A stretch of DNA of 64,000 nucleotides from positions 85,500 through 149,499 of the forward strand of contig NW_024883013.1 in NCBI RefSeq assembly GCF_019059575.1. Direction: 5' to 3'. The translations under genes were made by a program, and so were the position numbers. This document shows, piece after piece, positions 6,917 to 29,265 of this stretch; the first letter of the stretch is position 1, and the number at the start of each line of letters is the position of its first letter. The stretch comes from Amphibalanus amphitrite. Its lineage: Eukaryota > Arthropoda > Thecostraca > Balanomorpha > Balanidae. Under the pieces are notes generated by a model. The model had not been told where the DNA came from. It did no database searches and saw only the letters and a program-made list of their open reading frames with translations.

Positions 6917-7549
6917 CCACAAGCGGCGTATTTACAAATTGCAACCGAGCTCCGCCGTAGGGTATTTTATTTCCGCCGTAGTGTATTTCACTTGGGGGAT
7001 TCTCTACCATACATCTGCCTGAGCTTAGGGTAATTACAATTTGTCGGCGACGTTAAAAAATGATGGACCTTTTTTCGCAGTATAGGATATCGCATGTGCA
7101 TATTTCTGCCTTTTTGGGTGCGCTTTATCGGTTTTTCGTGAGTAACTCGCGTAAAAACCGTCCGATCGCGACGAAACTTTCAATGCCCCCGATTTTATCA
7201 ATTTTACACCTACCCTGAAAATTTCATGACCCTGACCCAAATGACCTTTGACCTGTGACCTATTTCTCGAGACCATGTTTGGCCCGAATCGCGATTCGGC
7301 GTATGTCGGCTCGCATTAGCCGCGCGGTTGCAGTTTTCACGTGGTTTCAAGCGTTGAAATATGTGATATGATGCTGGTCCCATGCATTAGGGTGGGTGTC
7401 AAGGTCACCTGAAGGTCAGGTCAGCTCAATGACCTTTGATGACCTCGGTTCCTTTTTCGAGTTTTACATGTTTCTAGGCTAGTTTTTGGAGCTGATTTCG
7501 AATTTAGCAACCATTTGAACATTACAGGGGATGTAACGAAATTATCCGG

Positions 7550-8250
7550 ACACCTTTCTTCCCGCTGTAATTAAAAAGCAAAACAATCTGGTACTTTTTA
7601 TTTTAACTGAGCTTGTAGCCACCTTTCATAAAAAACACAGTGATGAATGTTCTGGAGCATTTCAGCCAATGGATTCTCCAGCACATTGGCTTTGATGCGG
7701 ACCAACGCCGTCTAAACCTGTGCCTGCGGTTGAGCAGTGCTTATGGCGGGTGTATGTATGTATGTATGTATGTATGTATTGACGATCAAGAGCAATCCAC
7801 AATCGGCGTGGCGATTACACTCCGAGTCCGAGCTGGTTGAAGATAACACAAAAAATACCTATACAAGAAAACGCACACACTTACGGATACGAAAATGCAC
7901 AACGCGAACGCCGAACACGCACATACTTGGAGTAACCCGCACGAAGCCGCGTTCATAACCATACACACAGACTCGTTTGCCTTTCATAGTCCAAGAGTCA
8001 TGAGGCTAGCTACTATGGCTACTTCATGGGTGGCTGGGTGGCTCTTCATACACCTCCTGCTGAACAAGAGCCCACAGGTTTTCGATTGAATTGGGATCGC
8101 GACTTTTTCCAAGTCATAAGCGTTAGCCCAGAATGGTTGAAGGTTCTATCGGCATCACTTCCCGTTCTTTTAGGGATCTTTAAGTAGCGCGCCGCCCCGC
8201 ATGAAGACAGCGTGGCTTGAATCAGGCATCAGTGCGCGTTCAGAAACCGT
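7550..8250 (-). pseudogene. Degenerate Tc1/mariner transposase relic (copy 1)
   Basis: On the minus strand, the stretch near 8050-8115 reads DPNSIENLWALVQQEVY, matching the conserved C-terminal part of Tc1-type transposases around the third catalytic residue (family motif PDLNPIENLW). The rest is broken by stops and frame changes, and I cannot trace clean termini. It is a fossil inside E1 and not a source of activity. Identical copy at about 18564-19264. Confidence 0.6.
7751..7779. repeat. (TGTA)n microsatellite
   Basis: About seven uninterrupted TGTA units. The same length occurs in the second copy (about 18765-18793), consistent with a very recent duplication, because such tracts change length quickly. 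Confidence 0.9.
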
Positions 8251-9664
8251 GCCCTCCTATGCCGTCTGGTTGAGCGCCTCCAATCATGCTCCACCACCTT
8301 CCCTGGAAAAGCTCCACCCCATGCCTATGGGGCAAAATATAAGGGAGAAAACACAAAACAAGACAGATAAAAACAAAGCAAAATTAACTCATTACCTAAT
8401 GAAATTCAGGCTTGAGCAAAAACATAGGTAATAGGTATCTATGTCAAATTAGAATGAAAGATTAAAATCAACCTGACCAGGCCTTACGGTCTGACCTGGT
8501 CCTAACCACCTTACTTCGCCTAACTTAACCCAATTCAACCTAGCCTACCACAACACCTGCAGAGGTAGGTACCTTCCTGGAAAAATGGCGCTCAGGGAGG
8601 TGACTGTCCAACTTATTGGAATACTACCATGATTGCTTGTCAAAATGTGTGTCATCATGCTCTTGTTTGACAAGTGATGTATAATAAATGTGATATTCAT
8701 AATTCAATAATTATCTCCTGACTGCTGTCTGTTGAGTGATCAAAATATTCAAATAATCAGGGTACAATGCTGTGCATAGTGCACACTTATCATGTTGTTT
8801 TTGTGTAGGCCCTCTGCACATTGTTGTGTGCACTGCAGTGCTATGTGCACCTTAAGTAAAAAAGTGACTGGTGGTACATGACAAAAGGTTGTGCAACTGT
8901 GAAGTTCATGCCCTTGGTCAAGCTGGTGCCAAATGCCTATAGCTATAGCAGGATCAGTGAGGGTTGTAGACATGCTACATACATTGTGCATTGAAGATCT
9001 TGGCACAAAGTTCATCCGTAATTACTATGCTTAACACCTAATGTAAGAAGCGACATAAATGCCTAGATGATAAAACTCTCTGGTCAACATCACACAAATT
9101 TATTGACATACTTTGCAGGTACATATTTACATTCATGGCAAAATATACTTTCGATTTGATTCAGAACCTAGTTGCTAGTAAGCTTGCATTTTTGTAGGTA
9201 CAACAGTCAACAACGACCATACATTGAATCATAAAAAACCTTCTCATGGCATTCATCACATATCTTTGTACCGAACAAGTACCAAGCTACCATGCAATGA
9301 TTCTAAAATTTTCCGCAATCCATCTATATCTCAACTGACACAATGAATTTAAAATACCCTAACAAAACCTATAACTGTATATAAAAAGAATGCAATACTA
9401 CAAGAACTATGAATTTCTGAAGTTATTCTCACATGCTGGAACGTTGAAACTCTACTTTTGTCGTCCATTTCCACGTTTGATTGAGCCATCATATCGAACT
9501 GCTTTCGTTCTTCAGTCACAAGCTTTCTCACAAATCTTGAATTTTTACACATCATCTTGAACCATGCTCCAGTCTTTCCAACAAGGTACTATGTAACATC
9601 AAAGCAATTTTGATTTGTTACAACAGCTTCAGATCATGATAGGCTTGAGGTTGTTACACCATTT

Positions 9665-12600
9665 CAGTCGGTGACACACCAGGGAAATAAGCTAAAATAA
9701 GAGCGCTCTATTTATTGCTCCCGCTACTTCACCGTCTCCCATAGGGTCCTGTGTTGAGCTGGTGTCGAGGCTCTAAAAATGACGCCGATTTTTGCACCCT
9801 TCTCACGAAAACCGCTCGGACCGCCTGGAAACTAATTGTTCCGCTCTAAAAATTTCATGATCGACGGGAAAATGAATGAGGAAAAGATTGGTCCTGAAAT
9901 AATTCTGAACTCCCTGTAGAACATATCGAAATATGGCTGCAAACTAGGAGCATGTCAAAATCGACAAAACAATACAAATAAACTTACCGGGATTTTTTTA
10001 TTTTCCATGCATCTGTGTATGAAATCAGTCGGTTTTTCGGAAAGATCATCTTCTGTTTAATAAATAATTCCACAATTGCAATCGAGAAAAAAAAAACATT
10101 TCCGCTGTGACAGCAGTTTTGGCATTGTGCCAGTAGTGTGGCGTGCGCGGCGCTGCGTGGTCGTCGGGACGGAGTTGTGAGTATTTTCGGTGTTTTAAAT
10201 GGTTGATGGCCATTTGAACCAGCTTTATATTATTTCCTACAAATTTTTGCATCAAATTATTGCTTTGAAAGACCATTGAAACCCCTTATCTCTTCATGAA
10301 ACACGATCATATTCATCGTCGACGAAAATGGCGCGGGACTCCATGTGCATTCCGATCGAAATAAATCGTAAATTAAATAATATTCGATGATAAGTATCAT
10401 ATTCTAGTGACACGTTTTCATAAAATAAGGCATAAACTTTGCAAGGAAGTCAACATAGGATAATTGGATTCTTATTTTGCTCACATATCCTTGTAGTAGT
10501 CAAATGGCTCAATTGTTAGATAAATGTAAGTATATGTTTTGGCTTGATGTTTGCTGTGAAACCACCCAGCCACTTGCTGGTTGAGTGGTTTTCTGATAAT
10601 TACCTGATAATCATTTCTCCTTTTCCTGAAAAGAAACTAAAATTCCTTTCAAAGTAATCCCTTTTTAGGAAAGGCGGATTGCTCATTGACATTTCATGTT
10701 CTTGTTTTGTTATTGCTGGCAGTATTTTGATACAATAATGCAATATGATTTTTTTTTGCAATAAGAAAACCTAAGACAAACTTAGTTAATGCGTCAATCA
10801 AACACCCAACAGAAAGATTGTGAGTCCTTGTGACGTGAAGTAGAATATTCCATGAATGTGTTATATAGAATATGCCAAATATTAAATTAATTATTATTTG
10901 ATACTGATAGCTGAGCATGTGAATTATGCCACAATATAATTACATTTTCTGGTTTTGAAATAGCCAGCAGTATTTTACTTCAACAAATGTAATATACATG
11001 GAATACATGTTGTTATGTTATGTTAAAAGTTTAATAACAGCCAATTGAAGGGGCTGTTTCAGCAGATAATGTTTGTACCTTATGCATTACCTTTCTTTTC
11101 TGCAGGACCATGCTTCCGCTGGGTGGTCGACATTTGCCTCCTGAAGAAGTTGAGCAACATGAAGACCACCAGATGAGGTGTCTGCAGTTCATGTGGAACT
11201 CTGCAGACTACAAGTGTTATGCCAACCACAACCAAAGTGCTGTGATCATGGAGGCATGAACCTCATGACAACACTTCAGATTTGCAGTTGAATCAAAGTG
11301 TGATTCAAACCACCTGTGGCATCTCACTCAATGTGTGAACAGTGTGATTATTGTGCAGTGTTCAGCTGCAACTAAGACATTTATTAGTGACTCGTTTTGC
11401 AATTAGCCACCAAAAGCATTTTTTGGGCTAGCTGCTGTAATTTGTTGTGCACTGCGCAATAGTGGTAGTGTTTTGTCACTTGTCAAGTTGTCAGTTGTGC
11501 ATGTTGCATGTTTCTCTTCCCTCGGCCCTCATTATCAGTTAAGTGGTGAATTGGCATCACTCAGTCTCCCCAGATCTCCATTGACTGTCTGTCAACCACC
11601 CAACTTGAGATGGTATTTGCTAATAGTGTCAGAAAAGAAGTGATTGTAGACATTTTTAGGGATATGAGCTCCGTTTCATGCGTGTTCCAGTTGTCATTTT
11701 GTCACATGTCCCATAGTGTAATAAATGGAAACTGTTGTTCCCTTTTGAAGGTACTCGCGGATGCAGAAAGCGTTGGGCCTAATTATTAAACGCACCCTCC
11801 TATCAGCGACGCACGAAATCGACAAATATCATCCTTTCTAGAACAGGAGGAAACGAAAACTTGTGAACATAGCTGTACCTACAACAGTGCATAAGGAATT
11901 GAAATTCTGGGAGTTTTTGAAATTCGGAGAAACTCATGTTGTCGACAGGTATGCCCCCTTGCACGTCAAAGACCGCCTAAAAAAACAAACGTCTACAAAT
12001 GAAGGCAGTATTCGTATGTTCGTTGTAATTGCAGCAGCCTAGCAACATGCATTGCGGCCCGATGGCGAATTACACTCGTGCTCAAAAACTATGCCGGTAA
12101 CTGCCAATGCACTTAGGTCATAGGTGAGGAGAGGAAGGGTTATGTCATATGTCAACATCATAGAAATGGCTTCATCTGAGCTGTGCCTATTGTACATAAT
12201 TCAACCAATCTATGCATTTCGTTTCTTGCAATCTACTCATGCCTTCACTCCAGCTTCAGAGTAATCATCCCATATTGTACGTATTGATTTCTATGGCGGT
12301 TTGCAATTGCTAGCCGCGTCTCACCTCAGTTTGGTGGCCCCGCATCGGCCCACTCGGCCGCTCTAAAATTGACTTACGGAGGAGGATGGTGGCTTTTATT
12401 TTAGCTTCTCCGCTGACTGCGGGGAGCGCCGTCGCCGAGGTAGGAGCAATAATTAGCTTATGTTTGGGACTAATTTCCACGCTTAATTAACATTTTAATG
12501 TTATTTTTATTAATTCATGTTAATCTTTGATGCATTCTCTTTCTATTGATACCATCCACCGGTCTGAGAATTACTGCCTTGCTGCGTAAGGGCCGATAAA

Positions 12601-12695
12601 AGATCACGCTTTTAGGGGTATCTCTTCAACATGGGGCAGGAGCAATAAATAGAGCGCTCTAATTTTAGCTTATTTCCCTGGTATGTCACCAACTG
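9665..12695. mobile_element. E2: nested ~3.0-kb TIR element (copy 1)
   Basis: Left end 9665 and right end 12695 are an imperfect inverted repeat of ~55 bp beginning CAGTCGGTGACACACC on the left and CAGTTGGTGACATACC on the right, continuing through AAATAAGCTAAAAT and the palindromic AGAGCGCTCT. Flanking ATTT at 9661-9664 and 12696-12699 may be a 4-bp target duplication, but this is weak. A subterminal partial repeat of the TIR (AGGAGCAATAATTAGCTTA) sits near 12440. No transposase is visible and I cannot assign a superfamily. Apart from an exon-like piece (11110-11259) the 3 kb is AT-rich and non-coding. Confidence 0.7.
11110..11259 (+). CDS. Exon-like 49-codon frame inside E2 (possible captured terminal exon)
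   Basis: A pyrimidine-rich acceptor (CTTTCTTTTCTGCAG, ending 11105) is followed by an ATG at 11110 and an open frame of 49 codons to a TGA ending at 11259. A polyadenylation signal AATAAA lies about 460 bp downstream (11720). This looks like the 3' terminal exon and UTR of a gene carried inside a transposon. The peptide (with a Glu/His-rich stretch EEVEQHEDHQ) matches no family I recognise. No upstream exon or promoter is evident, so coding is uncertain. Identical copy at about 22125-22274. Confidence 0.3.
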   Translation: MLPLGGRHLPPEEVEQHEDHQMRCLQFMWNSADYKCYANHNQSAVIMEA

Positions 12696-13066
12696 ATTTG
12701 CCAGACAAATCTCTACAAAATGTGTATCAATTCCCAAACTAAGTAATTGATCACATCAGTATTTCCAGTTTCCACACAATGTTTCATAATACTATTCTAT
12801 GTTTATATAAAGAAACTCAAATAATCCACAAATTGTTATTGAAACACTCCCTCTTCAAGAATTCACAGCAATAACAGTACAAGTTCAGAAGCAAACAAAC
12901 ATTGCGCCAGATTTCGTATGAAACGCGCCATCGTCCTGAAGTTTCTACCACAGACGGTAGTTCAACCGCAGCCGTAGTGCGAAAACCCCTGCCCACCTTA
13001 CCCCACGGCGGAGCTCGGGTGCAATTTGTAAATACGCCCACAAGCGTGGTGTGTGTTCATGTTGGG

Positions 13067-14731
13067 GCACAGCAATCCCGTTCGCAGTTACGGGAGAGGA
13101 AGGACGTGTTATCGCAAAGCTCTTGATTGTGATCGGCGAGGCCGGGAAGAAGGAAGAGGACTATTTAAGTCCAATTTGTTTTTGTTTATTCAATTCTTTT
13201 GGAGAAGCATCCATTTTTCTTTTTCTTCCATTTCGTTTTGATTAATTGTCGGGTGGAAGCTCGGCCACGTGGTGAGTCACAATCGCCTCAATGAGTGATT
13301 GGGATCCATTGCGGAAGTGTAGGCTGGTGTGTAAATGATGGGGATACCCAGAGCTACAAAGAGGTCTAGAGTAGATAACATGAGAGAGACCTTTTGGGGT
13401 GATGAGGACTCGGGATTATACCTGAGTGTCACCCTGAAGTCAGGGAGTCCGATCAAGGGCAAAGGCTGGCCTTGGGTTCAGACTTGCATTAGGGGCATCT
13501 TAGGAGGACAAGATCGAGTATCAAAGGCGACATTTCAGAATGATGGGAGTCTGTTGCTGAAAACAAAAAATGAAAGGCAATCTGACAGACTGCTGAAAGC
13601 GACAATGTTCGGAAGTGAGGAGTGCAGTGTTCAGAAAGCAGAGAAACTTAACACGAGCAAAGGCACTATCTATGCCTTTGACCTGACGGAACTTACCGAA
13701 CAGGAGGTAGTGGGATGGCTCCAGGAGTTTGGAGTGGTTGGAGCGAAACGGGTGACAAGGAGGGTGGGAACTCACAGGGAAAACACCCCTCTGCTCATCC
13801 TGACATTTGACAAGCCAACGTGCCCAACACAACTACATTTTGATTATGTGTCCTATGAGGTGCGAAGGTACATTCCTAACCCTCTGCTCTGCAATCAGTG
13901 TGGCAAATATGGTCATGTTCAGGCCAAGTGCAAAAGTGTTGCGTTGTGTCTGAAGTGTGGGGGTGAGAAACATGAAGGGGACTGCTCCCCCAAATGCATT
14001 AACTGTACTTCTGATGACAGACACCCTTGTTACTCCCACGACTGCCCAGTCTGGAGAAAGGAAAAGGAGGTGTGTGAAATCAAAGTGACACAGGATATTT
14101 CATACGCTCATGCTCGGAGGGAGTATGAGAAAAAGCACCAAAGACCCACGACACCGGCATATTCTGCTATACTTCAGACATCACCGACCACACAGCAACA
14201 GAACCACCTGGATACCTCTTTGAGGGAGCGGGTTGATGTACTGGAAACAAAGGTGGATAAGATGCTGTCCCTTCTCAACAAACTGGCGAGTCAGGCAGGG
14301 GTTAACACCTCTGATGAGACACTCCAGATCCCAAACCGAGAACCTGAACTGAGAGACTGTGTCCCAACCCCTGCACAACCACCACGTGAGGTGGGAGATA
14401 GCATGGCTGAGGACAATCCCATTCCAGGTAGTGGGAATGGGAGTAGCCAAAAGGCCCAGGTCGTCGAAGAGACTGACACCTCTGATGACATGGACGATGG
14501 GGAAAGCCAAGAGATTGGTAGGAAGGGAGTGGAGTGGACCAAAGTGGACCGTTGTGGTAGACAACGTAGGAGTAGAGGTGGAGGAAAAGGCAAACATCCA
14601 ACTTCCCAAATGCATCCCTCCTCTCATGAGGACACAAGAGGTAAACAGGTACCTCCCACAGTACAGGGTACAGAGAAACGAATGCCTAGTCTCACTAGGA
14701 TGGTTCTCAAACCCACTTAGTAGAAGGTCAG
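13067..14731 (+). mobile_element. 5' part of I-type LINE (copy 1)
   Basis: Same sequence as 24082-25746. It begins directly after GTTCATGTTGGG (13055-13066), which in the second copy is a 12-bp target duplication. It contains the 5' UTR and ORF1 and is cut at 14731 by the Gypsy LTR. In this copy the rest of the LINE (ORF2, 3' end) is missing because the duplicated block ends in Gypsy pol. Only 8 bp separate E1's right target duplication (ends 13046) from this element's left one. Confidence 0.9.
13335..14720 (+). CDS. LINE ORF1 protein, CCHC nucleic-acid chaperone (copy 1)
   Basis: This 461-aa protein is the RNA-binding, Gag-like ORF1 of an I-group non-LTR retrotransposon and would coat the element's RNA. 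An N-terminal globular part (about residues 1-180) is followed by clustered Cys/His knuckles at about residues 186-234 (CNQCGKYGHVQAKC, then CLKCGGEKHEGDC and a third cysteine cluster), as in I, Jockey and R1 ORF1 proteins. The C-terminal 200 residues are polar and low-complexity, with a short heptad-like stretch (about residues 295-320). The frame is intact. In this copy it has no downstream ORF2, so the element cannot move on its own. Confidence 0.88.
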   Translation: MMGIPRATKRSRVDNMRETFWGDEDSGLYLSVTLKSGSPIKGKGWPWVQTCIRGILGGQDRVSKATFQNDGSLLLKTKNERQSDRLLKATMFGSEECSVQKAEKLNTSKGTIYAFDLTELTEQEVVGWLQEFGVVGAKRVTRRVGTHRENTPLLILTFDKPTCPTQLHFDYVSYEVRRYIPNPLLCNQCGKYGHVQAKCKSVALCLKCGGEKHEGDCSPKCINCTSDDRHPCYSHDCPVWRKEKEVCEIKVTQDISYAHARREYEKKHQRPTTPAYSAILQTSPTTQQQNHLDTSLRERVDVLETKVDKMLSLLNKLASQAGVNTSDETLQIPNREPELRDCVPTPAQPPREVGDSMAEDNPIPGSGNGSSQKAQVVEETDTSDDMDDGESQEIGRKGVEWTKVDRCGRQRRSRGGGKGKHPTSQMHPSSHEDTRGKQVPPTVQGTEKRMPSLTRMVLKPT

Positions 14732-17700
14732 TGTAGTATATTAACGTAAAGCAAGAATGAAATACGTAACGAAAGAGTTCAAATAAGCGCCAAAAGAACA
14801 CATCAGCCTCGACCGGCCGCACCGCGCGCACTGTCTGACCCGACCGCCGCGCCGGTCAGCTCGGCGGGGTCACCGCGGTCGTGGCGGCTGCCGATTGGTC
14901 CGCGCGCTCGAGTCCGCGCCCGCGCTACTCGGCCGGCGCCGCCCGGCGCACACAGGCACGGCATGATGGAAAGTTCCCAACACAGGATCACGATACCACA
15001 CTTTTCTCCCCCCTTAAACAAAGCGATCCGGCGCACGTACGACACGTCCACTACGCGTTCGATACGGCGAAGCCGGCTCCGAAGATGACGCCGACTCGTC
15101 ACCCGCACGCTCGGTCGTCGTCGTCCCGGTTTCCGCCTGGTGATCTCCTCCAGCACGATGAACAGCACCATCGCCAGCGTCGCGAGGTAGGCTAGGCGCT
15201 GCGGCTGCTCCGGCGACGGACGACTGCTCCGACGTCACGTCACCAGTGGCAGCGCTGGCAGCGGCGTCGACTGCGATTGGCGCTCGCCGTCGCAGCCCGA
15301 CGGTCGACGACGCAGCAGAGTCTGTGACTGGCTGACAGGGCAGGTCCACCTCGGCCTCCGGTACTCCAGTGCACTCAGGAGACGGTGCAGACCTGGGAAG
15401 ATCGGGTGGTGAGCAGCGAGACAGGCGCTCCGCGTGGACACGCACTCCACCCTCCAGCTCATACGAAGCAGGTCCACGACGAGCAGTTACACGACACGGT
15501 GACGAGAAACGCGGGCGTCCTTTACGTGGCCGCGGCATCACCCGATACCGGACCCAGTCTCCCACCTGGATGGTCGGTGCACAGACCCGCTTCCTGTTGT
15601 CGAAGTGTCGCTTCATCTGGCGCTGCTTTCGGCTGACCCGTTGTCGCAAGGCGGCGTCTCCGGTGCTGCCACCTTCCGGTGCGACTGCGCTGTCCAGGTC
15701 CGTCCGCATCTGCCGGCCGTGGAGCAGCTCGGACGGGCTCCGGCCGGTCGTTCCGTGCGGCGTCGCTCGGTACGTGCGGAGGTAGGACTGCAGGTACTGT
15801 CGGCGGTCCACCGACTGCTGGTCCGCCATCTGGAGAGCAGATTTGATGTCACGATTCAAACGCTCTACAGCACCACTACCTGCAGGGTGATACGGTGACA
15901 CTCTGACATGCTTGACACCATGCTTCTTCAGAAACTGTCCAAACTTCACAGATGTGAAGTGAGTACCGTTATCAGTGACAACCTCCCTTGGCCATCCCTC
16001 CCGTGACGTCACAGTCAGCAGAAAGTCAATGACAGCATCACTTGACGGTTCACGGACAAACGCCATCTCTGGCCATTTCGAGTAATAGTCTACGAGGACT
16101 ATCGCATACCTTTGATTTGGTGGTCCTGTCATCGGGCCGATGAAGTCAAGTCCCACCTTATCCCAGGCTGCAGCTGGCAGGGGAACAGGACTGAGTGGCG
16201 CGAACCTCGTCTTCGCCGTCTTGTCGGCCACGATGCAGGCTGGGCACTCCTTGATGGTCGTCTCCACCGCTGCGTCCATTCCGGGCCACCAGAACAGCGC
16301 TCGAAGCCGCTGTTTGGTCCGGACGATGCCCTGGTGGGATTCATGCGCCAGCGTCAGCAACCGAGGTCTGAGCACAGTGGGAACCACGATCCGTTCACCA
16401 CGCAAAATCAGCTCACCGTCGATAGCTAGCTCCTGCTTACAGCGGAAATACGGCCTGAGGACGTCATCAACATCACTGAAGCGACGGGGCCACTCCCGAG
16501 GGATCTGGTCCATCAGGGCCCTTACCTCAGCGTCTTCCCGTCCCGCTACTGCTAGCTCCTCACGGCTGACGGCTGACGTCTCGTCGGCGAGGCAGGCCAC
16601 CAGCTCGGACTCGTCATCCTCGACCTCTTGCTCCGGTCCCGGCAGTCTGGAGAGGCCGTCAGACGGGTTCAGCTGGCCCTTGACGTGTTCCACTGCAAAC
16701 GAGTAGTTCATCAGGCGCACCGCCCAGCGAGACATCCTCATGCCGGCACGACCAACACCCCTGACAGTCAACAGCGATTTCAAGGCAGCATGATCGGTAC
16801 GTAGCACAAACTCTTGACCCCACAGATATTTGTGCCATTTTTCACAGGCCCAGACGCACGCTAACCCCTCACGCTCTGTGACACTGTACCTCCGTTGTGC
16901 AGCGTTGAGCGTGGACGAAGCGAAGGCGACGACTCTCTCGCCCTCAGGATGTACCTGGCTCAAGACGGCTCCCAAGCCGACATCACTGGCGTCCGTCGTG
17001 ACAACGGTCGGCAGGCTGGGGTCGAACATCGACAGGGCGTCAGAGTCGAGGATCGCCTGCCGGACGTCGTTGAACGCCGCATCCATCTCTGGAGTCCAGG
17101 CGAACTCTGGAGCATCCTTCCTCAGCTGGCGTCTGAGAGACTCGACGCGGGTACTGTAACCTGGAACAAACTTACAGTAGAAGCCCAGGGAACCCAGCAC
17201 AGCCTGCAGCTCCTTCTTCGACTTCGGCACCGCCAGGCTACGCAAGCCCTGGACGCGCTCAGACGACACGGAGATCCTGCCGTCAGTCACGGTGAAACCC
17301 AGGAAGTCCACCGACGTCACTCCGATCTTGCACTTCTGACGGTTCAGCGTGATGTTGTGGTCCTCCAGTCGCCGAAGAACCTGTTGGAGGTGGTCATCGT
17401 GCTCTTGCCGGCTGCCCCCAGTGACGATCACATCGTCGAGGTACACATGCACCCCTGGAACACCGGTCAGCACACACTCCATCAGCTTCTGGAAGCACTG
17501 CGGCATGCTCTTCAACCCAAAGCAGCATCTTCGATACCTCCAGGTCTGGCCGTCGTGGATGAACGCCGTCAGGTCCCTGGACGACTCGTGGAGCTCCAAC
17601 TGGTGGTACGCCGACTTCATGTCTAGAGTCGACATGCACTTCGCACCACGCAGCTTCTCCAGCATCTCCTGCATGTCAGGAATTGGATGACCATTTGAGA

Positions 17701-17939
17701 TGACAGCTCTGTTCACCTCAGACAAGTCGAGGCAAATCCGTAGACCTTTACCTCCCCTTTTACGGATGGCTACGATCGGTGAGAGCCATGGAGATGCAGC
17801 ACGATCCACTCGCTCGATGATACCTTGCCACTCCAAGTCCTCCAGATGGGCACCTACCTCATCTCTCAGAGCGTACGGCATTGTCCTCAGCGGCAGCTGC
17901 ACGGGGACGGCGTCAGGTCGAAGACGTACCTTGTGCACG
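14732..17939 (-). mobile_element. Truncated Ty3/Gypsy element: 3' LTR plus pol (copy 1)
   Basis: Holds the 269-bp 3' LTR (14732-15000, TG...CA ends), the polypurine tract next to it on the minus strand (GGGGGGAGAAAAG, about 15001-15013), and most of pol. It stops at 17939, the duplication junction, where E1's left end begins. The 5' LTR, primer site, gag, protease and start of pol are absent. Confidence 0.92.
15014..17938 (-). pseudogene. Ty3/Gypsy pol fragment (copy 1), 5'-truncated
   Basis: 974 codons identical to the C-terminal part of the full pol at 26029-29265: reverse transcriptase (YLDD), RNase H, and integrase with HHCC and DDE residues. The missing N-terminus (protease remainder and about 100 residues before RT) results from the duplication breakpoint and is not mutational decay. 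Without gag and a 5' LTR promoter it is not an independent element. Confidence 0.9.
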
Positions 17940-20900
17940 GCGTATTTACAAATTGCAACCGAGCTCCGCCGTAGGGTATTTTATTTCCGCCGTAGTGTAT
18001 TTCACTTGGGGGATTCTCTACCATACATCTGCCTGAGCTTAGGGTAATTACAATTTGTCGGCGACGTTAAAAAATGATGGACCTTTTTTCGCAGTATAGG
18101 ATATCGCATGTGCATATTTCTGCCTTTTTGGGTGCGCTTTATCGGTTTTTCGTGAGTAACTCGCGTAAAAACCGTCCGATCGCGACGAAACTTTCAATGC
18201 CCCCGATTTTATCAATTTTACACCTACCCTGAAAATTTCATGACCCTGACCCAAATGACCTTTGACCTGTGACCTATTTCTCGAGACCATGTTTGGCCCG
18301 AATCGCGATTCGGCGTATGTCGGCTCGCATTAGCCGCGCGGTTGCAGTTTTCACGTGGTTTCAAGCGTTGAAATATGTGATATGATGCTGGTCCCATGCA
18401 TTAGGGTGGGTGTCAAGGTCACCTGAAGGTCAGGTCAGCTCAATGACCTTTGATGACCTCGGTTCCTTTTTCGAGTTTTACATGTTTCTAGGCTAGTTTT
18501 TGGAGCTGATTTCGAATTTAGCAACCATTTGAACATTACAGGGGATGTAACGAAATTATCCGGACACCTTTCTTCCCGCTGTAATTAAAAAGCAAAACAA
18601 TCTGGTACTTTTTATTTTAACTGAGCTTGTAGCCACCTTTCATAAAAAACACAGTGATGAATGTTCTGGAGCATTTCAGCCAATGGATTCTCCAGCACAT
18701 TGGCTTTGATGCGGACCAACGCCGTCTAAACCTGTGCCTGCGGTTGAGCAGTGCTTATGGCGGGTGTATGTATGTATGTATGTATGTATGTATTGACGAT
18801 CAAGAGCAATCCACAATCGGCGTGGCGATTACACTCCGAGTCCGAGCTGGTTGAAGATAACACAAAAAATACCTATACAAGAAAACGCACACACTTACGG
18901 ATACGAAAATGCACAACGCGAACGCCGAACACGCACATACTTGGAGTAACCCGCACGAAGCCGCGTTCATAACCATACACACAGACTCGTTTGCCTTTCA
19001 TAGTCCAAGAGTCATGAGGCTAGCTACTATGGCTACTTCATGGGTGGCTGGGTGGCTCTTCATACACCTCCTGCTGAACAAGAGCCCACAGGTTTTCGAT
19101 TGAATTGGGATCGCGACTTTTTCCAAGTCATAAGCGTTAGCCCAGAATGGTTGAAGGTTCTATCGGCATCACTTCCCGTTCTTTTAGGGATCTTTAAGTA
19201 GCGCGCCGCCCCGCATGAAGACAGCGTGGCTTGAATCAGGCATCAGTGCGCGTTCAGAAACCGTGCCCTCCTATGCCGTCTGGTTGAGCGCCTCCAATCA
19301 TGCTCCACCACCTTCCCTGGAAAAGCTCCACCCCATGCCTATGGGGCAAAATATAAGGGAGAAAACACAAAACAAGACAGATAAAAACAAAGCAAAATTA
19401 ACTCATTACCTAATGAAATTCAGGCTTGAGCAAAAACATAGGTAATAGGTATCTATGTCAAATTAGAATGAAAGATTAAAATCAACCTGACCAGGCCTTA
19501 CGGTCTGACCTGGTCCTAACCACCTTACTTCGCCTAACTTAACCCAATTCAACCTAGCCTACCACAACACCTGCAGAGGTAGGTACCTTCCTGGAAAAAT
19601 GGCGCTCAGGGAGGTGACTGTCCAACTTATTGGAATACTACCATGATTGCTTGTCAAAATGTGTGTCATCATGCTCTTGTTTGACAAGTGATGTATAATA
19701 AATGTGATATTCATAATTCAATAATTATCTCCTGACTGCTGTCTGTTGAGTGATCAAAATATTCAAATAATCAGGGTACAATGCTGTGCATAGTGCACAC
19801 TTATCATGTTGTTTTTGTGTAGGCCCTCTGCACATTGTTGTGTGCACTGCAGTGCTATGTGCACCTTAAGTAAAAAAGTGACTGGTGGTACATGACAAAA
19901 GGTTGTGCAACTGTGAAGTTCATGCCCTTGGTCAAGCTGGTGCCAAATGCCTATAGCTATAGCAGGATCAGTGAGGGTTGTAGACATGCTACATACATTG
20001 TGCATTGAAGATCTTGGCACAAAGTTCATCCGTAATTACTATGCTTAACACCTAATGTAAGAAGCGACATAAATGCCTAGATGATAAAACTCTCTGGTCA
20101 ACATCACACAAATTTATTGACATACTTTGCAGGTACATATTTACATTCATGGCAAAATATACTTTCGATTTGATTCAGAACCTAGTTGCTAGTAAGCTTG
20201 CATTTTTGTAGGTACAACAGTCAACAACGACCATACATTGAATCATAAAAAACCTTCTCATGGCATTCATCACATATCTTTGTACCGAACAAGTACCAAG
20301 CTACCATGCAATGATTCTAAAATTTTCCGCAATCCATCTATATCTCAACTGACACAATGAATTTAAAATACCCTAACAAAACCTATAACTGTATATAAAA
20401 AGAATGCAATACTACAAGAACTATGAATTTCTGAAGTTATTCTCACATGCTGGAACGTTGAAACTCTACTTTTGTCGTCCATTTCCACGTTTGATTGAGC
20501 CATCATATCGAACTGCTTTCGTTCTTCAGTCACAAGCTTTCTCACAAATCTTGAATTTTTACACATCATCTTGAACCATGCTCCAGTCTTTCCAACAAGG
20601 TACTATGTAACATCAAAGCAATTTTGATTTGTTACAACAGCTTCAGATCATGATAGGCTTGAGGTTTGTTACACCATTTCAGTCGGTGACACACCAGGGA
20701 AATAAGCTAAAATAAGAGCGCTCTATTTATTGCTCCCGCTACTTCACCGTCTCCCATAGGGTCCTGTGTTGAGCTGGTGTCGAGGCTCTAAAAATGACGC
20801 CGATTTTTGCACCCTTCTCACGAAAACCGCTCGGACCGCCTGGAAACTAATTGTTCCGCTCTAAAAATTTCATGATCGACGGGAAAATGAATGAGGAAAA

Positions 20901-23900
20901 GATTGGTCCTGAAATAATTCTGAACTCCCTGTAGAACATATCGAAATATGGCTGCAAACTAGGAGCATGTCAAAATCGACAAAACAATACAAATAAACTT
21001 ACCGGGATTTTTTTATTTTCCATGCATCTGTGTATGAAATCAGTCGGTTTTTCGGAAAGATCATCTTCTGTTTAATAAATAATTCCACAATTGCAATCGA
21101 GAAAAAAAAAACATTTCCGCTGTGACAGCAGTTTTGGCATTGTGCCAGTAGTGTGGCGTGCGCGGCGCTGCGTGGTCGTCGGGACGGAGTTGTGAGTATT
21201 TTCGGTGTTTTAAATGGTTGATGGCCATTTGAACCAGCTTTATATTATTTCCTACAAATTTTTGCATCAAATTATTGCTTTGAAAGACCATTGAAACCCC
21301 TTATCTCTTCATGAAACACGATCATATTCATCGTCGACGAAAATGGCGCGGGACTCCATGTGCATTCCGATCGAAATAAATCGTAAATTAAATAATATTC
21401 GATGATAAGTATCATATTCTAGTGACACGTTTTCATAAAATAAGGCATAAACTTTGCAAGGAAGTCAACATAGGATAATTGGATTCTTATTTTGCTCACA
21501 TATCCTTGTAGTAGTCAAATGGCTCAATTGTTAGATAAATGTAAGTATATGTTTTGGCTTGATGTTTGCTGTGAAACCACCCAGCCACTTGCTGGTTGAG
21601 TGGTTTTCTGATAATTACCTGATAATCATTTCTCCTTTTCCTGAAAAGAAACTAAAATTCCTTTCAAAGTAATCCCTTTTTAGGAAAGGCGGATTGCTCA
21701 TTGACATTTCATGTTCTTGTTTTGTTATTGCTGGCAGTATTTTGATACAATAATGCAATATGATTTTTTTTTGCAATAAGAAAACCTAAGACAAACTTAG
21801 TTAATGCGTCAATCAAACACCCAACAGAAAGATTGTGAGTCCTTGTGACGTGAAGTAGAATATTCCATGAATGTGTTATATAGAATATGCCAAATATTAA
21901 ATTAATTATTATTTGATACTGATAGCTGAGCATGTGAATTATGCCACAATATAATTACATTTTCTGGTTTTGAAATAGCCAGCAGTATTTTACTTCAACA
22001 AATGTAATATACATGGAATACATGTTGTTATGTTATGTTAAAAGTTTAATAACAGCCAATTGAAGGGGCTGTTTCAGCAGATAATGTTTGTACCTTATGC
22101 ATTACCTTTCTTTTCTGCAGGACCATGCTTCCGCTGGGTGGTCGACATTTGCCTCCTGAAGAAGTTGAGCAACATGAAGACCACCAGATGAGGTGTCTGC
22201 AGTTCATGTGGAACTCTGCAGACTACAAGTGTTATGCCAACCACAACCAAAGTGCTGTGATCATGGAGGCATGAACCTCATGACAACACTTCAGATTTGC
22301 AGTTGAATCAAAGTGTGATTCAAACCACCTGTGGCATCTCACTCAATGTGTGAACAGTGTGATTATTGTGCAGTGTTCAGCTGCAACTAAGACATTTATT
22401 AGTGACTCGTTTTGCAATTAGCCACCAAAAGCATTTTTTGGGCTAGCTGCTGTAATTTGTTGTGCACTGCGCAATAGTGGTAGTGTTTTGTCACTTGTCA
22501 AGTTGTCAGTTGTGCATGTTGCATGTTTCTCTTCCCTCGGCCCTCATTATCAGTTAAGTGGTGAATTGGCATCACTCAGTCTCCCCAGATCTCCATTGAC
22601 TGTCTGTCAACCACCCAACTTGAGATGGTATTTGCTAATAGTGTCAGAAAAGAAGTGATTGTAGACATTTTTAGGGATATGAGCTCCGTTTCATGCGTGT
22701 TCCAGTTGTCATTTTGTCACATGTCCCATAGTGTAATAAATGGAAACTGTTGTTCCCTTTTGAAGGTACTCGCGGATGCAGAAAGCGTTGGGCCTAATTA
22801 TTAAACGCACCCTCCTATCAGCGACGCACGAAATCGACAAATATCATCCTTTCTAGAACAGGAGGAAACGAAAACTTGTGAACATAGCTGTACCTACAAC
22901 AGTGCATAAGGAATTGAAATTCTGGGAGTTTTTGAAATTCGGAGAAACTCATGTTGTCGACAGGTATGCCCCCTTGCACGTCAAAGACCGCCTAAAAAAA
23001 CAAACGTCTACAAATGAAGGCAGTATTCGTATGTTCGTTGTAATTGCAGCAGCCTAGCAACATGCATTGCGGCCCGATGGCGAATTACACTCGTGCTCAA
23101 AAACTATGCCGGTAACTGCCAATGCACTTAGGTCATAGGTGAGGAGAGGAAGGGTTATGTCATATGTCAACATCATAGAAATGGCTTCATCTGAGCTGTG
23201 CCTATTGTACATAATTCAACCAATCTATGCATTTCGTTTCTTGCAATCTACTCATGCCTTCACTCCAGCTTCAGAGTAATCATCCCATATTGTACGTATT
23301 GATTTCTATGGCGGTTTGCAATTGCTAGCCGCGTCTCACCTCAGTTTGGTGGCCCCGCATCGGCCCACTCGGCCGCTCTAAAATTGACTTACGGAGGAGG
23401 ATGGTGGCTTTTATTTTAGCTTCTCCGCTGACTGCGGGGAGCGCCGTCGCCGAGGTAGGAGCAATAATTAGCTTATGTTTGGGACTAATTTCCACGCTTA
23501 ATTAACATTTTAATGTTATTTTTATTAATTCATGTTAATCTTTGATGCATTCTCTTTCTATTGATACCATCCACCGGTCTGAGAATTACTGCCTTGCTGC
23601 GTAAGGGCCGATAAAAGATCACGCTTTTAGGGGTATCTCTTCAACATGGGGCAGGAGCAATAAATAGAGCGCTCTAATTTTAGCTTATTTCCCTGGTATG
23701 TCACCAACTGATTTGCCAGACAAATCTCTACAAAATGTGTATCAATTCCCAAACTAAGTAATTGATCACATCAGTATTTCCAGTTTCCACACAATGTTTC
23801 ATAATACTATTCTATGTTTATATAAAGAAACTCAAATAATCCACAAATTGTTATTGAAACACTCCCTCTTCAAGAATTCACAGCAATAACAGTACAAGTT

Positions 23901-24052
23901 CAGAAGCAAACAAACATTGCGCCAGATTTCGTATGAAACGCGCCATCGTCCTGAAGTTTCTACCACAGACGGTAGTTCAACCGCAGCCGTAGTGCGAAAA
24001 CCCCTGCCCACCTTACCCCACGGCGGAGCTCGGGTGCAATTTGTAAATACGC
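17940..24052. mobile_element. E1: TIR element, copy 2 at the duplication junction
   Basis: Same as 6926-13037 except for one extra T. The right end has the original flank (CCACAAGCG at 24053-24061). The left end abuts Gypsy pol (CTTGTGCACG ending 17939) instead of CCACAAGCG, so this copy has mismatched flanks. Contents repeat copy 1: Tc1/mariner relic (about 18564-19264), (TGTA)n (about 18765-18793), E2 (20680-23710) and the exon-like piece (22125-22274). Confidence 0.85.
20680..23710. mobile_element. E2: nested TIR element (copy 2)
   Basis: Duplicate of 9665-12695 with the same imperfect terminal inverted repeats and ATTT on both sides. The single-base difference between the 11-kb copies lies just outside it (about 20664). 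Confidence 0.7.
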
Positions 24053-24349
24053 CCACAAGCGTGGTGTGTGTTCATGTTGGGGCACAGCAATCCCGTTCGC
24101 AGTTACGGGAGAGGAAGGACGTGTTATCGCAAAGCTCTTGATTGTGATCGGCGAGGCCGGGAAGAAGGAAGAGGACTATTTAAGTCCAATTTGTTTTTGT
24201 TTATTCAATTCTTTTGGAGAAGCATCCATTTTTCTTTTTCTTCCATTTCGTTTTGATTAATTGTCGGGTGGAAGCTCGGCCACGTGGTGAGTCACAATCG
24301 CCTCAATGAGTGATTGGGATCCATTGCGGAAGTGTAGGCTGGTGTGTAA

Positions 24350-25735
24350 ATGATGGGGATACCCAGAGCTACAAAGAGGTCTAGAGTAGATAACATGAGA
24401 GAGACCTTTTGGGGTGATGAGGACTCGGGATTATACCTGAGTGTCACCCTGAAGTCAGGGAGTCCGATCAAGGGCAAAGGCTGGCCTTGGGTTCAGACTT
24501 GCATTAGGGGCATCTTAGGAGGACAAGATCGAGTATCAAAGGCGACATTTCAGAATGATGGGAGTCTGTTGCTGAAAACAAAAAATGAAAGGCAATCTGA
24601 CAGACTGCTGAAAGCGACAATGTTCGGAAGTGAGGAGTGCAGTGTTCAGAAAGCAGAGAAACTTAACACGAGCAAAGGCACTATCTATGCCTTTGACCTG
24701 ACGGAACTTACCGAACAGGAGGTAGTGGGATGGCTCCAGGAGTTTGGAGTGGTTGGAGCGAAACGGGTGACAAGGAGGGTGGGAACTCACAGGGAAAACA
24801 CCCCTCTGCTCATCCTGACATTTGACAAGCCAACGTGCCCAACACAACTACATTTTGATTATGTGTCCTATGAGGTGCGAAGGTACATTCCTAACCCTCT
24901 GCTCTGCAATCAGTGTGGCAAATATGGTCATGTTCAGGCCAAGTGCAAAAGTGTTGCGTTGTGTCTGAAGTGTGGGGGTGAGAAACATGAAGGGGACTGC
25001 TCCCCCAAATGCATTAACTGTACTTCTGATGACAGACACCCTTGTTACTCCCACGACTGCCCAGTCTGGAGAAAGGAAAAGGAGGTGTGTGAAATCAAAG
25101 TGACACAGGATATTTCATACGCTCATGCTCGGAGGGAGTATGAGAAAAAGCACCAAAGACCCACGACACCGGCATATTCTGCTATACTTCAGACATCACC
25201 GACCACACAGCAACAGAACCACCTGGATACCTCTTTGAGGGAGCGGGTTGATGTACTGGAAACAAAGGTGGATAAGATGCTGTCCCTTCTCAACAAACTG
25301 GCGAGTCAGGCAGGGGTTAACACCTCTGATGAGACACTCCAGATCCCAAACCGAGAACCTGAACTGAGAGACTGTGTCCCAACCCCTGCACAACCACCAC
25401 GTGAGGTGGGAGATAGCATGGCTGAGGACAATCCCATTCCAGGTAGTGGGAATGGGAGTAGCCAAAAGGCCCAGGTCGTCGAAGAGACTGACACCTCTGA
25501 TGACATGGACGATGGGGAAAGCCAAGAGATTGGTAGGAAGGGAGTGGAGTGGACCAAAGTGGACCGTTGTGGTAGACAACGTAGGAGTAGAGGTGGAGGA
25601 AAAGGCAAACATCCAACTTCCCAAATGCATCCCTCCTCTCATGAGGACACAAGAGGTAAACAGGTACCTCCCACAGTACAGGGTACAGAGAAACGAATGC
25701 CTAGTCTCACTAGGATGGTTCTCAAACCCACTTAG
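24350..25735 (+). CDS. LINE ORF1 protein, CCHC nucleic-acid chaperone (copy 2)
   Basis: 461 aa, identical in sequence to the protein at 13335-14720. It has a globular N-terminal half, a triple Cys/His knuckle region at about residues 186-234, and a polar C-terminal tail rich in Asp/Glu then Arg/Gly/Lys (RSRGGGKGK). It packages element RNA into RNP particles in I-group LINEs. Here it sits upstream of an intact ORF2, but a Gypsy element lies 11 bp after its stop codon, so a transcript reaching ORF2 would have to read through 4.7 kb of antisense-oriented retrovirus-like DNA. Confidence 0.88.
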   Translation: MMGIPRATKRSRVDNMRETFWGDEDSGLYLSVTLKSGSPIKGKGWPWVQTCIRGILGGQDRVSKATFQNDGSLLLKTKNERQSDRLLKATMFGSEECSVQKAEKLNTSKGTIYAFDLTELTEQEVVGWLQEFGVVGAKRVTRRVGTHRENTPLLILTFDKPTCPTQLHFDYVSYEVRRYIPNPLLCNQCGKYGHVQAKCKSVALCLKCGGEKHEGDCSPKCINCTSDDRHPCYSHDCPVWRKEKEVCEIKVTQDISYAHARREYEKKHQRPTTPAYSAILQTSPTTQQQNHLDTSLRERVDVLETKVDKMLSLLNKLASQAGVNTSDETLQIPNREPELRDCVPTPAQPPREVGDSMAEDNPIPGSGNGSSQKAQVVEETDTSDDMDDGESQEIGRKGVEWTKVDRCGRQRRSRGGGKGKHPTSQMHPSSHEDTRGKQVPPTVQGTEKRMPSLTRMVLKPT

Positions 25736-25746
25736 TAGAAGGTCAG

Positions 25747-26015
25747 TGTAGTATATTAACGTAAAGCAAGAATGAAATACGTAACGAAAGAGTTCAAATA
25801 AGCGCCAAAAGAACACATCAGCCTCGACCGGCCGCACCGCGCGCACTGTCTGACCCGACCGCCGCGCCGGTCAGCTCGGCGGGGTCACCGCGGTCGTGGC
25901 GGCTGCCGATTGGTCCGCGCGCTCGAGTCCGCGCCCGCGCTACTCGGCCGGCGCCGCCCGGCGCACACAGGCACGGCATGATGGAAAGTTCCCAACACAG
26001 GATCACGATACCACA
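25747..26015 (-). repeat. Gypsy 3' LTR
   Basis: 269 bp, TG...CA, same sequence as 30201-30469 and 14732-15000. Very GC-rich in the middle, with overlapping CGCG words. In the minus-strand sense it follows the polypurine tract at 26016-26028. Confidence 0.95.
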
Positions 26016-26028
26016 CTTTTCTCCCCCC

Positions 26029-29000
26029 TTAAACAAAGCGATCCGGCGCACGTACGACACGTCCACTACGCGTTCGATACGGCGAAGCCGGCTCCGAAGA
26101 TGACGCCGACTCGTCACCCGCACGCTCGGTCGTCGTCGTCCCGGTTTCCGCCTGGTGATCTCCTCCAGCACGATGAACAGCACCATCGCCAGCGTCGCGA
26201 GGTAGGCTAGGCGCTGCGGCTGCTCCGGCGACGGACGACTGCTCCGACGTCACGTCACCAGTGGCAGCGCTGGCAGCGGCGTCGACTGCGATTGGCGCTC
26301 GCCGTCGCAGCCCGACGGTCGACGACGCAGCAGAGTCTGTGACTGGCTGACAGGGCAGGTCCACCTCGGCCTCCGGTACTCCAGTGCACTCAGGAGACGG
26401 TGCAGACCTGGGAAGATCGGGTGGTGAGCAGCGAGACAGGCGCTCCGCGTGGACACGCACTCCACCCTCCAGCTCATACGAAGCAGGTCCACGACGAGCA
26501 GTTACACGACACGGTGACGAGAAACGCGGGCGTCCTTTACGTGGCCGCGGCATCACCCGATACCGGACCCAGTCTCCCACCTGGATGGTCGGTGCACAGA
26601 CCCGCTTCCTGTTGTCGAAGTGTCGCTTCATCTGGCGCTGCTTTCGGCTGACCCGTTGTCGCAAGGCGGCGTCTCCGGTGCTGCCACCTTCCGGTGCGAC
26701 TGCGCTGTCCAGGTCCGTCCGCATCTGCCGGCCGTGGAGCAGCTCGGACGGGCTCCGGCCGGTCGTTCCGTGCGGCGTCGCTCGGTACGTGCGGAGGTAG
26801 GACTGCAGGTACTGTCGGCGGTCCACCGACTGCTGGTCCGCCATCTGGAGAGCAGATTTGATGTCACGATTCAAACGCTCTACAGCACCACTACCTGCAG
26901 GGTGATACGGTGACACTCTGACATGCTTGACACCATGCTTCTTCAGAAACTGTCCAAACTTCACAGATGTGAAGTGAGTACCGTTATCAGTGACAACCTC
27001 CCTTGGCCATCCCTCCCGTGACGTCACAGTCAGCAGAAAGTCAATGACAGCATCACTTGACGGTTCACGGACAAACGCCATCTCTGGCCATTTCGAGTAA
27101 TAGTCTACGAGGACTATCGCATACCTTTGATTTGGTGGTCCTGTCATCGGGCCGATGAAGTCAAGTCCCACCTTATCCCAGGCTGCAGCTGGCAGGGGAA
27201 CAGGACTGAGTGGCGCGAACCTCGTCTTCGCCGTCTTGTCGGCCACGATGCAGGCTGGGCACTCCTTGATGGTCGTCTCCACCGCTGCGTCCATTCCGGG
27301 CCACCAGAACAGCGCTCGAAGCCGCTGTTTGGTCCGGACGATGCCCTGGTGGGATTCATGCGCCAGCGTCAGCAACCGAGGTCTGAGCACAGTGGGAACC
27401 ACGATCCGTTCACCACGCAAAATCAGCTCACCGTCGATAGCTAGCTCCTGCTTACAGCGGAAATACGGCCTGAGGACGTCATCAACATCACTGAAGCGAC
27501 GGGGCCACTCCCGAGGGATCTGGTCCATCAGGGCCCTTACCTCAGCGTCTTCCCGTCCCGCTACTGCTAGCTCCTCACGGCTGACGGCTGACGTCTCGTC
27601 GGCGAGGCAGGCCACCAGCTCGGACTCGTCATCCTCGACCTCTTGCTCCGGTCCCGGCAGTCTGGAGAGGCCGTCAGACGGGTTCAGCTGGCCCTTGACG
27701 TGTTCCACTGCAAACGAGTAGTTCATCAGGCGCACCGCCCAGCGAGACATCCTCATGCCGGCACGACCAACACCCCTGACAGTCAACAGCGATTTCAAGG
27801 CAGCATGATCGGTACGTAGCACAAACTCTTGACCCCACAGATATTTGTGCCATTTTTCACAGGCCCAGACGCACGCTAACCCCTCACGCTCTGTGACACT
27901 GTACCTCCGTTGTGCAGCGTTGAGCGTGGACGAAGCGAAGGCGACGACTCTCTCGCCCTCAGGATGTACCTGGCTCAAGACGGCTCCCAAGCCGACATCA
28001 CTGGCGTCCGTCGTGACAACGGTCGGCAGGCTGGGGTCGAACATCGACAGGGCGTCAGAGTCGAGGATCGCCTGCCGGACGTCGTTGAACGCCGCATCCA
28101 TCTCTGGAGTCCAGGCGAACTCTGGAGCATCCTTCCTCAGCTGGCGTCTGAGAGACTCGACGCGGGTACTGTAACCTGGAACAAACTTACAGTAGAAGCC
28201 CAGGGAACCCAGCACAGCCTGCAGCTCCTTCTTCGACTTCGGCACCGCCAGGCTACGCAAGCCCTGGACGCGCTCAGACGACACGGAGATCCTGCCGTCA
28301 GTCACGGTGAAACCCAGGAAGTCCACCGACGTCACTCCGATCTTGCACTTCTGACGGTTCAGCGTGATGTTGTGGTCCTCCAGTCGCCGAAGAACCTGTT
28401 GGAGGTGGTCATCGTGCTCTTGCCGGCTGCCCCCAGTGACGATCACATCGTCGAGGTACACATGCACCCCTGGAACACCGGTCAGCACACACTCCATCAG
28501 CTTCTGGAAGCACTGCGGCATGCTCTTCAACCCAAAGCAGCATCTTCGATACCTCCAGGTCTGGCCGTCGTGGATGAACGCCGTCAGGTCCCTGGACGAC
28601 TCGTGGAGCTCCAACTGGTGGTACGCCGACTTCATGTCTAGAGTCGACATGCACTTCGCACCACGCAGCTTCTCCAGCATCTCCTGCATGTCAGGAATTG
28701 GATGACCATTTGAGATGACAGCTCTGTTCACCTCAGACAAGTCGAGGCAAATCCGTAGACCTTTACCTCCCCTTTTACGGATGGCTACGATCGGTGAGAG
28801 CCATGGAGATGCAGCACGATCCACTCGCTCGATGATACCTTGCCACTCCAAGTCCTCCAGATGGGCACCTACCTCATCTCTCAGAGCGTACGGCATTGTC
28901 CTCAGCGGCAGCTGCACGGGGACGGCGTCAGGTCGAAGACGTACCTTGTGCACGTACCCTCGGATCGCTGGCAGCACCTGACTGCTCACCTGACAGACCA

Positions 29001-29265
29001 CGTTGCCGTGACGCACGGTCAGTGCCAGCTGCTGCTGCAGGTCCCTGCCCATGAGTGGCAGCTGTCCCACCGCGACGTAGATGTCCGCGAGCACCTCTCC
29101 AGAGTCAGATCCACGTTCCACTGAGACAGCGGACCAGCTGGCCGCAGCTGAACGCTGCTGAAGTTCTGGTGGTAGAGCCTCGCTGGAATGATGCTTACCG
29201 CAGAACCGGTGTCGACTAGCATCCTCACTGGGTGTCTGTTGATGGTCACGGTGTAGTACGGACAT
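26029..29265 (-). CDS. pol: Ty3/Gypsy pol: RT, RNase H, integrase
   Basis: 1078 codons. Residues about 45-80 carry the later part of an aspartic protease (ending LMGRD). RT follows (about 125-320, LDMKSAYHQ and the catalytic YLDD at 270-273), then RNase H from about 419 (TTDASDVGLGAVLSQ). The integrase zinc domain has H635, H639, C669 and C672; the catalytic triad is at about D702, D760 (TDNGTHF) and E796. The tail is basic. Domain order RT-RNase H-integrase is that of Ty3/Gypsy, and the GLDFIGP and chromodomain-less end suggest a Mag-like lineage (inference). Pol lies in the -1 frame relative to gag and overlaps it inside the protease domain. The first methionine is arbitrary, since expression is as a Gag-Pol fusion. 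Confidence 0.95.
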   Translation of the reverse strand: MSVLHRDHQQTPSEDASRHRFCGKHHSSEALPPELQQRSAAASWSAVSVERGSDSGEVLADIYVAVGQLPLMGRDLQQQLALTVRHGNVVCQVSSQVLPAIRGYVHKVRLRPDAVPVQLPLRTMPYALRDEVGAHLEDLEWQGIIERVDRAASPWLSPIVAIRKRGGKGLRICLDLSEVNRAVISNGHPIPDMQEMLEKLRGAKCMSTLDMKSAYHQLELHESSRDLTAFIHDGQTWRYRRCCFGLKSMPQCFQKLMECVLTGVPGVHVYLDDVIVTGGSRQEHDDHLQQVLRRLEDHNITLNRQKCKIGVTSVDFLGFTVTDGRISVSSERVQGLRSLAVPKSKKELQAVLGSLGFYCKFVPGYSTRVESLRRQLRKDAPEFAWTPEMDAAFNDVRQAILDSDALSMFDPSLPTVVTTDASDVGLGAVLSQVHPEGERVVAFASSTLNAAQRRYSVTEREGLACVWACEKWHKYLWGQEFVLRTDHAALKSLLTVRGVGRAGMRMSRWAVRLMNYSFAVEHVKGQLNPSDGLSRLPGPEQEVEDDESELVACLADETSAVSREELAVAGREDAEVRALMDQIPREWPRRFSDVDDVLRPYFRCKQELAIDGELILRGERIVVPTVLRPRLLTLAHESHQGIVRTKQRLRALFWWPGMDAAVETTIKECPACIVADKTAKTRFAPLSPVPLPAAAWDKVGLDFIGPMTGPPNQRYAIVLVDYYSKWPEMAFVREPSSDAVIDFLLTVTSREGWPREVVTDNGTHFTSVKFGQFLKKHGVKHVRVSPYHPAGSGAVERLNRDIKSALQMADQQSVDRRQYLQSYLRTYRATPHGTTGRSPSELLHGRQMRTDLDSAVAPEGGSTGDAALRQRVSRKQRQMKRHFDNRKRVCAPTIQVGDWVRYRVMPRPRKGRPRFSSPCRVTARRGPASYELEGGVRVHAERLSRCSPPDLPRSAPSPECTGVPEAEVDLPCQPVTDSAASSTVGLRRRAPIAVDAAASAATGDVTSEQSSVAGAAAAPSLPRDAGDGAVHRAGGDHQAETGTTTTERAGDESASSSEPASPYRTRSGRVVRAPDRFV

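Follow-up and report, generated by a model that had tools for sequence, protein, structure and literature searches.

The window analysed here, a stretch of 64,000 nucleotides from contig NW_024883013.1 (positions 85,500 to 149,499 of the forward strand, renumbered below from 1), contains a tandem direct duplication in which both copies open at the left end of a DNA transposon, termed E1, that is bounded by terminal inverted repeats (TIRs). Along the window, the segments follow each other in the order a-E1-b-E1-b-c, where a, b and c are labels and b is the DNA between E1 and a target site in the pol gene of a Gypsy retrotransposon. The explanation favoured for this order, with a probability of roughly 0.4, is that the duplication is young and was generated through E1 by alternative transposition, with the participation of the homologous chromosome or of a second E1 element.

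The two copies of the duplicated block, each consisting of E1 followed by b, lie head-to-tail and directly adjacent on the forward strand, at 6926-17939 (11,014 bp) and 17940-28954 (11,015 bp). Comparison of the window with itself returns them as a single match of 11,017 columns (6924-17939 against 17938-28954), with no mismatches and one gap. This gap is the sole difference between the copies, an extra T in copy 2 that is first seen at 20667, against 9653 in copy 1, and past the resulting shift the blocks are identical. With 0 substitutions at 11,014 sites, divergence is at most 2.7e-4 per site (95% upper bound), and the array would, judging by these bases, be either extremely young or an artefact. 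The first-pass annotation of the window had described the same order, as well as near-identity with one indel, and both hold to the base. Its further claim that the duplication is very young agrees with the absence of substitutions, but youth and artefact look alike in the same data.

E1 occupies 6926-13037 in the first copy (6,112 bp) and 17940-24052 in the second (6,113 bp, with the extra T), and its TIRs, of about 40 bp, are identical at 37 of 40 bases. The 18-base terminus GCGTATTTACAAATTGCA occurs four times in the window when up to three mismatches are allowed, all four occurrences being exact and corresponding to the four E1 ends, against a chance expectation of 0.06. The block had been proposed to begin at the first base of the left TIR, and these termini lie where that proposal placed them. 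The first E1 has matched flanks, the same 9-bp sequence CCACAAGCG standing on its left (6917-6925) and on its right (13038-13046), which constitutes a normal target site duplication (TSD). The flanks of the second E1 are instead mismatched: CCACAAGCG is found on its right (24053-24061), as in the first, and TTGTGCACG, derived from Gypsy pol, on its left (17931-17939). Both the joining of a TIR end to pol at the internal junction and the preservation of the original right flank had been recognised at first reading, and the sequence given there, CTTGTGCACG, is correct.

The joint at 17939/17940 is the new one, and the b/c site at 28954/28955 is ancestral, because the pol frame crosses the latter unbroken and the nested retrotransposon structure is complete when read from copy 2 into c. 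In this structure, the Gypsy element is nested within a long interspersed nuclear element (LINE), between its two open reading frames (ORFs). The LINE ORF1 (13335-14720, forward strand, 461 amino acids, repeated at 24350-25735) and the Gypsy 3' long terminal repeat (LTR; 14732-15000, reverse strand, 269 bp, repeated at 25747-26015) belong to b, and the Gypsy 5' LTR (30201-30469, reverse strand) and the LINE ORF2 (30653-34429, forward strand, 1,258 amino acids) belong to c. The target duplication of Gypsy, GTCAG, is present on the 3' LTR side (14727-14731) and on the 5' LTR side (30470-30474), and the LTRs are identical over 269 bp, the single mismatch in the 272 columns of their comparison falling outside them. 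The pol frame of 1,080 amino acids (26029-29271, reverse strand), in which reverse transcriptase, RNase H and integrase domains were found by searching it in pieces, is cut at the E1 junction in block copy 1.

The ancestral site itself, TTGTGCACG joined to TACCCTCGG (28946-28963), is uninterrupted and bears no footprint. A comparison was made with the first 30 of 120 listed relatives, out of 271 found for a piece of this Gypsy, and of these 30 all 21 that cover pol residues 104-118, around the b/c site, are gap-free there, which together with the unbroken frame argues that the site is intact. Residues 103-110 are gap-free in 20 of 21 covering relatives. For the wider range 94-118 the count drops to 4 of 18, owing to a variable linker that lies upstream of the site and is included in this range. 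Two bases (CG) are common to the left flanks of the first and the second E1, which leaves the breakpoint ambiguous by 2 bp. Since 16% of position pairs taken at random between 100 and 30000 of the window have at least two bases in common, this sharing speaks neither for nor against microhomology. A randomly placed breakpoint was rejected because the joint falls on the end of a 40-bp TIR that a 9-bp TSD corroborates, an argument from position rather than from a computed probability. A third E1 excised from 28954 was likewise rejected for want of a footprint, an argument that does not cover precise excision.

Candidate rearrangements were written as a graph and their products enumerated, with gap repair and sequential events outside the model. 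The route named by the first-pass annotation was sister-chromatid transposition, in which a single E1 would contribute its two ends from two sisters. For a sister pair with one E1 per chromatid, any left or right end and the b/c site of either sister, the observed order appears in 0 of 16 outcomes (9 distinct), and the single-step version of this route was rejected. The case as originally proposed gives a-b-E1-b-c and a-E1-c, the sole E1 of the duplication standing between the two b segments. What survives of that interpretation is the order, the breakpoint at a terminus and the intact target site, but not the route. When a homologue also bearing E1 is added, one distinct product set among 54 outcomes holds the observed order, accompanied by a-E1-c and a-b-c, whereas a homologue without E1 gives it in 0 of 24. 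A second E1 placed upstream, direct or inverted, yields one distinct product set with the observed order in each orientation (64 outcomes each).

According to the favoured explanation, the left end of E1 would have been cut free from one chromatid and joined to another that still carried E1, the target being TTGTGCACG in Gypsy pol at a distance of 4.9 kb. The right end could have been provided by E1 on the sister chromatid, which would amount to a hybrid-element insertion if the target was on the homologue, or by a second E1 farther off on the same chromatid, which would amount to reversed-ends transposition. The joint would then be the work of a transposase, the second end would be one of these two, and the array would exist in one DNA molecule. 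Alternative transposition is favoured because the breakpoint falls within 2 bp of the E1 terminus, because the first E1 has matched TSDs while the far site is unoccupied and without footprint, and because hybrid insertion involving a homologue with E1, or a second upstream E1, gives the order in one reaction.

Several points weigh against this explanation. Within the window, which covers only 6.9 kb upstream, there is no E1 terminus beyond the four E1 ends (up to three mismatches) and no similarity to E1 outside the block at an E value of 1e-3 or better, and the partner needed by reversed-ends transposition is therefore not seen. E1 contains no stop-to-stop frame of at least 120 amino acids, so that no transposase is seen either and the activity of the element has to be presumed. 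Pfam gave no matches for 3 of the 63 frames (at least 45 amino acids) overlapping E1, the other 60 not having been scanned. In addition, the same bases would result from crossing-over between insertion haplotypes, as the enumeration shows, and from a walk through an assembly graph.

Unequal crossing-over inside E1 between such haplotypes is rather unlikely. E1 or a sibling copy would first insert at TTGTGCACG on an E1-bearing chromosome, giving a-E1-b-E1-c, and the second copy would then exchange with the first-site E1 of a-E1-b-c, resulting in a-E1-b-E1-b-c and the reciprocal a-E1-c. The observed order is indeed produced in the enumeration when a haplotype with E1 at both sites is crossed with one carrying it at the first site only; the mismatched flanks follow, and 6.1 kb of near-identical homology is available. 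This contradicts the earlier claim that unequal crossing-over cannot break at a TIR end, since an exchange inside E1 gives the exact product. The argument raised against non-allelic homologous recombination (NAHR) as presented in PMC3744419, by which three copies or a footprint are expected, does not extend to insertion polymorphism. On the other hand, the route requires an additional, unseen insertion haplotype and then an exchange, and E1 copies that are one base apart offer no chimerism by which the exchange could be revealed. Three other haplotype pairs tried did not produce the observed order, and for the same reason NAHR between partners that each carry E1 at the two sites and exchange between a-E1-b-c and a-b-E1-c were rejected.

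An assembly artefact, also on the unlikely side, would consist of a graph walk through a collapsed E1 combined with a heterozygous insertion at 28954 or in a near-identical Gypsy elsewhere, in which case the joint between b and the E1 left end would still be real in some haplotype, though no molecule would hold the full array. The near-identity of the copies, free of substitutions over 11,014 bp, is what such a walk would leave. The Gypsy element is young, as its identical LTRs indicate, and near-identical copies of it may exist; E1, at 6.1 kb, is about as long as, or longer than, the reads that some long-read projects typically obtain. As an example, the reads behind one barnacle assembly were reported to have a mean of 6.84 kb and a median of 4.74 kb, and before filtering 21.1% of the arthropod core genes in it were duplicated (PMC8917513). 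The two copies do differ by one base, however, and plain uncollapsed haplotypes would be expected to show many differences if the animal is as variable as Balanus improvisus, for which an average coding diversity of about 5% is given (PMC8270832). This last argument does not count against a graph walk.

End joining or some other process is improbable as a whole, and slightly more so is the principal form that it could take, a one-ended or repair event in which a break occurs at the E1 left end only, through transposase or fork trouble. The left end would then be joined to a break in the Gypsy pol of the sister by end joining or microhomology-primed replication. The 2 bp (CG) common at the joint and the presence of only the E1 left end in the product joint are in line with such an event, but sharing of this extent is at chance level and the joint is precise down to the last base, without filler. 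Hardly to be entertained is sister-chromatid transposition of a single E1 followed by ordinary allelic exchange with an a-E1-b-c chromosome within the first b, which, by reasoning rather than computation, would add the left E1 to a-b-E1-b-c, but whose single-step version is excluded and whose extra event nothing in the data indicates.

Unequal, or non-allelic homologous, exchange is the prevailing model for tandem direct duplications (PMC3744419). Working on maize, Zhang, Zuo and Peterson (2013) described nine tandem direct duplications that arose from an Ac/fAc allele, together with three natural ones among 7,611 hAT insertions, the criteria being exactly two copies, each initiated by a transposon; in two of these three, the second element has one original TSD and one non-matching flank (PMC3744419). 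According to the same source, the direct tandem duplications of maize come from reversed-ends transposition, using two elements, and sister-chromatid transposition involves directly oriented ends on sisters, with bridges, breaks, inverted duplications and deletions as its consequences (PMC3744419). The E1 array has all of the features by which the maize cases were recognised, namely two copies, a start at the terminus and a mismatched second element. As in reversed-ends transposition, its first element has both TSDs and its second has one TSD plus a non-matching flank, and its far breakpoint shows neither element nor footprint. It differs from the maize system in the length of the TSD (9 bp against 8 bp), in the lack of a recognisable transposase and of a visible partner element, in the host, which is probably an animal, possibly a crustacean, and not a plant, and in the similarity of the copies, which are near-identical here and 93-99% alike there. 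The repeat is also longer, at 11 kb (4.9 kb without E1), whereas the repeats of the three natural cases from maize measure 116-1,262 bp (PMC3744419).

If ends on different chromatids did act together, E1 would in this respect resemble the P elements of Drosophila undergoing hybrid element insertion. This process was reportedly described by Gray et al. in 1996, and its usual assay employs a homologue without the element. The E1 order, in contrast, needs a homologue bearing E1, none of the outcomes enumerated for one without it showing that order. In P-element hybrid insertion, the ends of copies on sister chromatids or on homologues act together (PMC2775673, PMC3744419). Unequal exchange between roo copies at white, also in Drosophila (Goldberg et al. 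1983, cited in PMC7003089), is similar in that a crossover between non-allelic transposon copies leads to a duplication and a deletion. Ordinary exchange of this type, in which both partners carry a copy at either end, leaves three copies (PMC3744419), whereas the far end of the E1 array has none; under exchange, the second insertion must therefore have been polymorphic. The mobilisation of CYP6CY3 in the aphid Myzus persicae likewise involves an animal gene copy with a DNA transposon, in this case a hAT element, at its breakpoint, for which the authors leave both NAHR and alternative transposition open (PMC7202869). Unlike the E1 array, it concerns a gene copy at a new locus and an element with an 8-bp TSD, and the passages of that paper on the mobilisation describe no a-E-b-E-b-c array. 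Re-replication has been added as a source of composite insertions (PMC4270019), and none of these was seen at the E1 array.

In its 9-bp target duplication and its TIRs, E1 agrees with a Mutator-like or other DNA transposon with a 9-bp TSD. Target duplications of 8-10 bp are typical of Mutator-like elements. Assignment of E1 to the hAT elements (Ac/Ds) was rejected, its TSD being 9 bp and not 8 bp. Viral contigs contain no match to a 32-base pattern of the E1 terminus, and the four matches to the bare 18-mer in prokaryote genomes were taken as chance. Nested in E1 lies an inverted-repeat element (9665-12695, repeated in copy 2) with ends CAGT(C/T)GGTGACA(C/T)ACCAGGG and a possible 4-bp target duplication, ATTT.

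Another TSD of the same length as that of E1 is found in a 9.6-kb foldback-like element at 48865-58462. Its inverted arms consist of about 24 and 36 units of a 152-bp tandem repeat, its ends read ATGTCCATAAAGTTAG, and a 9-bp direct repeat, CCCTGCAAT, flanks it; the Rehavkus-type relatives of Mutator may be comparable. A 286-bp repeat forms two arrays, at 1-3065 and at 4787-6756, that run in opposite directions, are about 98.7% alike and have a fragment between them (4055-4707); they possibly represent a further foldback-like element cut by the window edge.

The named sources among the matches listed for the Gypsy piece are scattered, including fish, tick, algae, fungi and a record labelled as a cyanobacterial metagenome-assembled genome (55%). 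The LINE ORF1 has 46 relatives, one of them from Amphibalanus amphitrite at 53% identity, and ORF2 has 72, among them one from Paspalum notatum at 24%. A crustacean source is therefore possible. The window also includes a 20-bp minisatellite of about 60 diverged copies (36009-37244), a tRNA-Gly (GCC) gene that was the only match in an Rfam search (44988-45058), and a frame with a NOC3 domain (40257-40655; Pfam PF07540, E 1.7e-15). The start of this frame falls within a tandem repeat with a 65-bp unit (40080-40375), and similar coding sequence is present in the consensus of that repeat.

As a young duplication that can be read to the base, the array provides a clean natural case for the question of whether, in hosts other than plants and Drosophila, transposases directly build tandem copies. 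It is somewhat unlikely that the array represents a tandem direct duplication that arose naturally in an animal, in one step of alternative transposition, through a 9-bp-TSD element belonging neither to hAT nor to P. The array also brings out a gap in the published test, where insertion polymorphism lets crossing-over mimic the two-copy pattern with mismatched TSDs; since a polymorphic insertion followed by crossing-over gives the same result, this pattern alone is no proof of alternative transposition. If alternative transposition by a 9-bp-TSD element did take place, the capacity to synapse the ends of different copies and to generate new tandem arrays would extend to another transposase superfamily.

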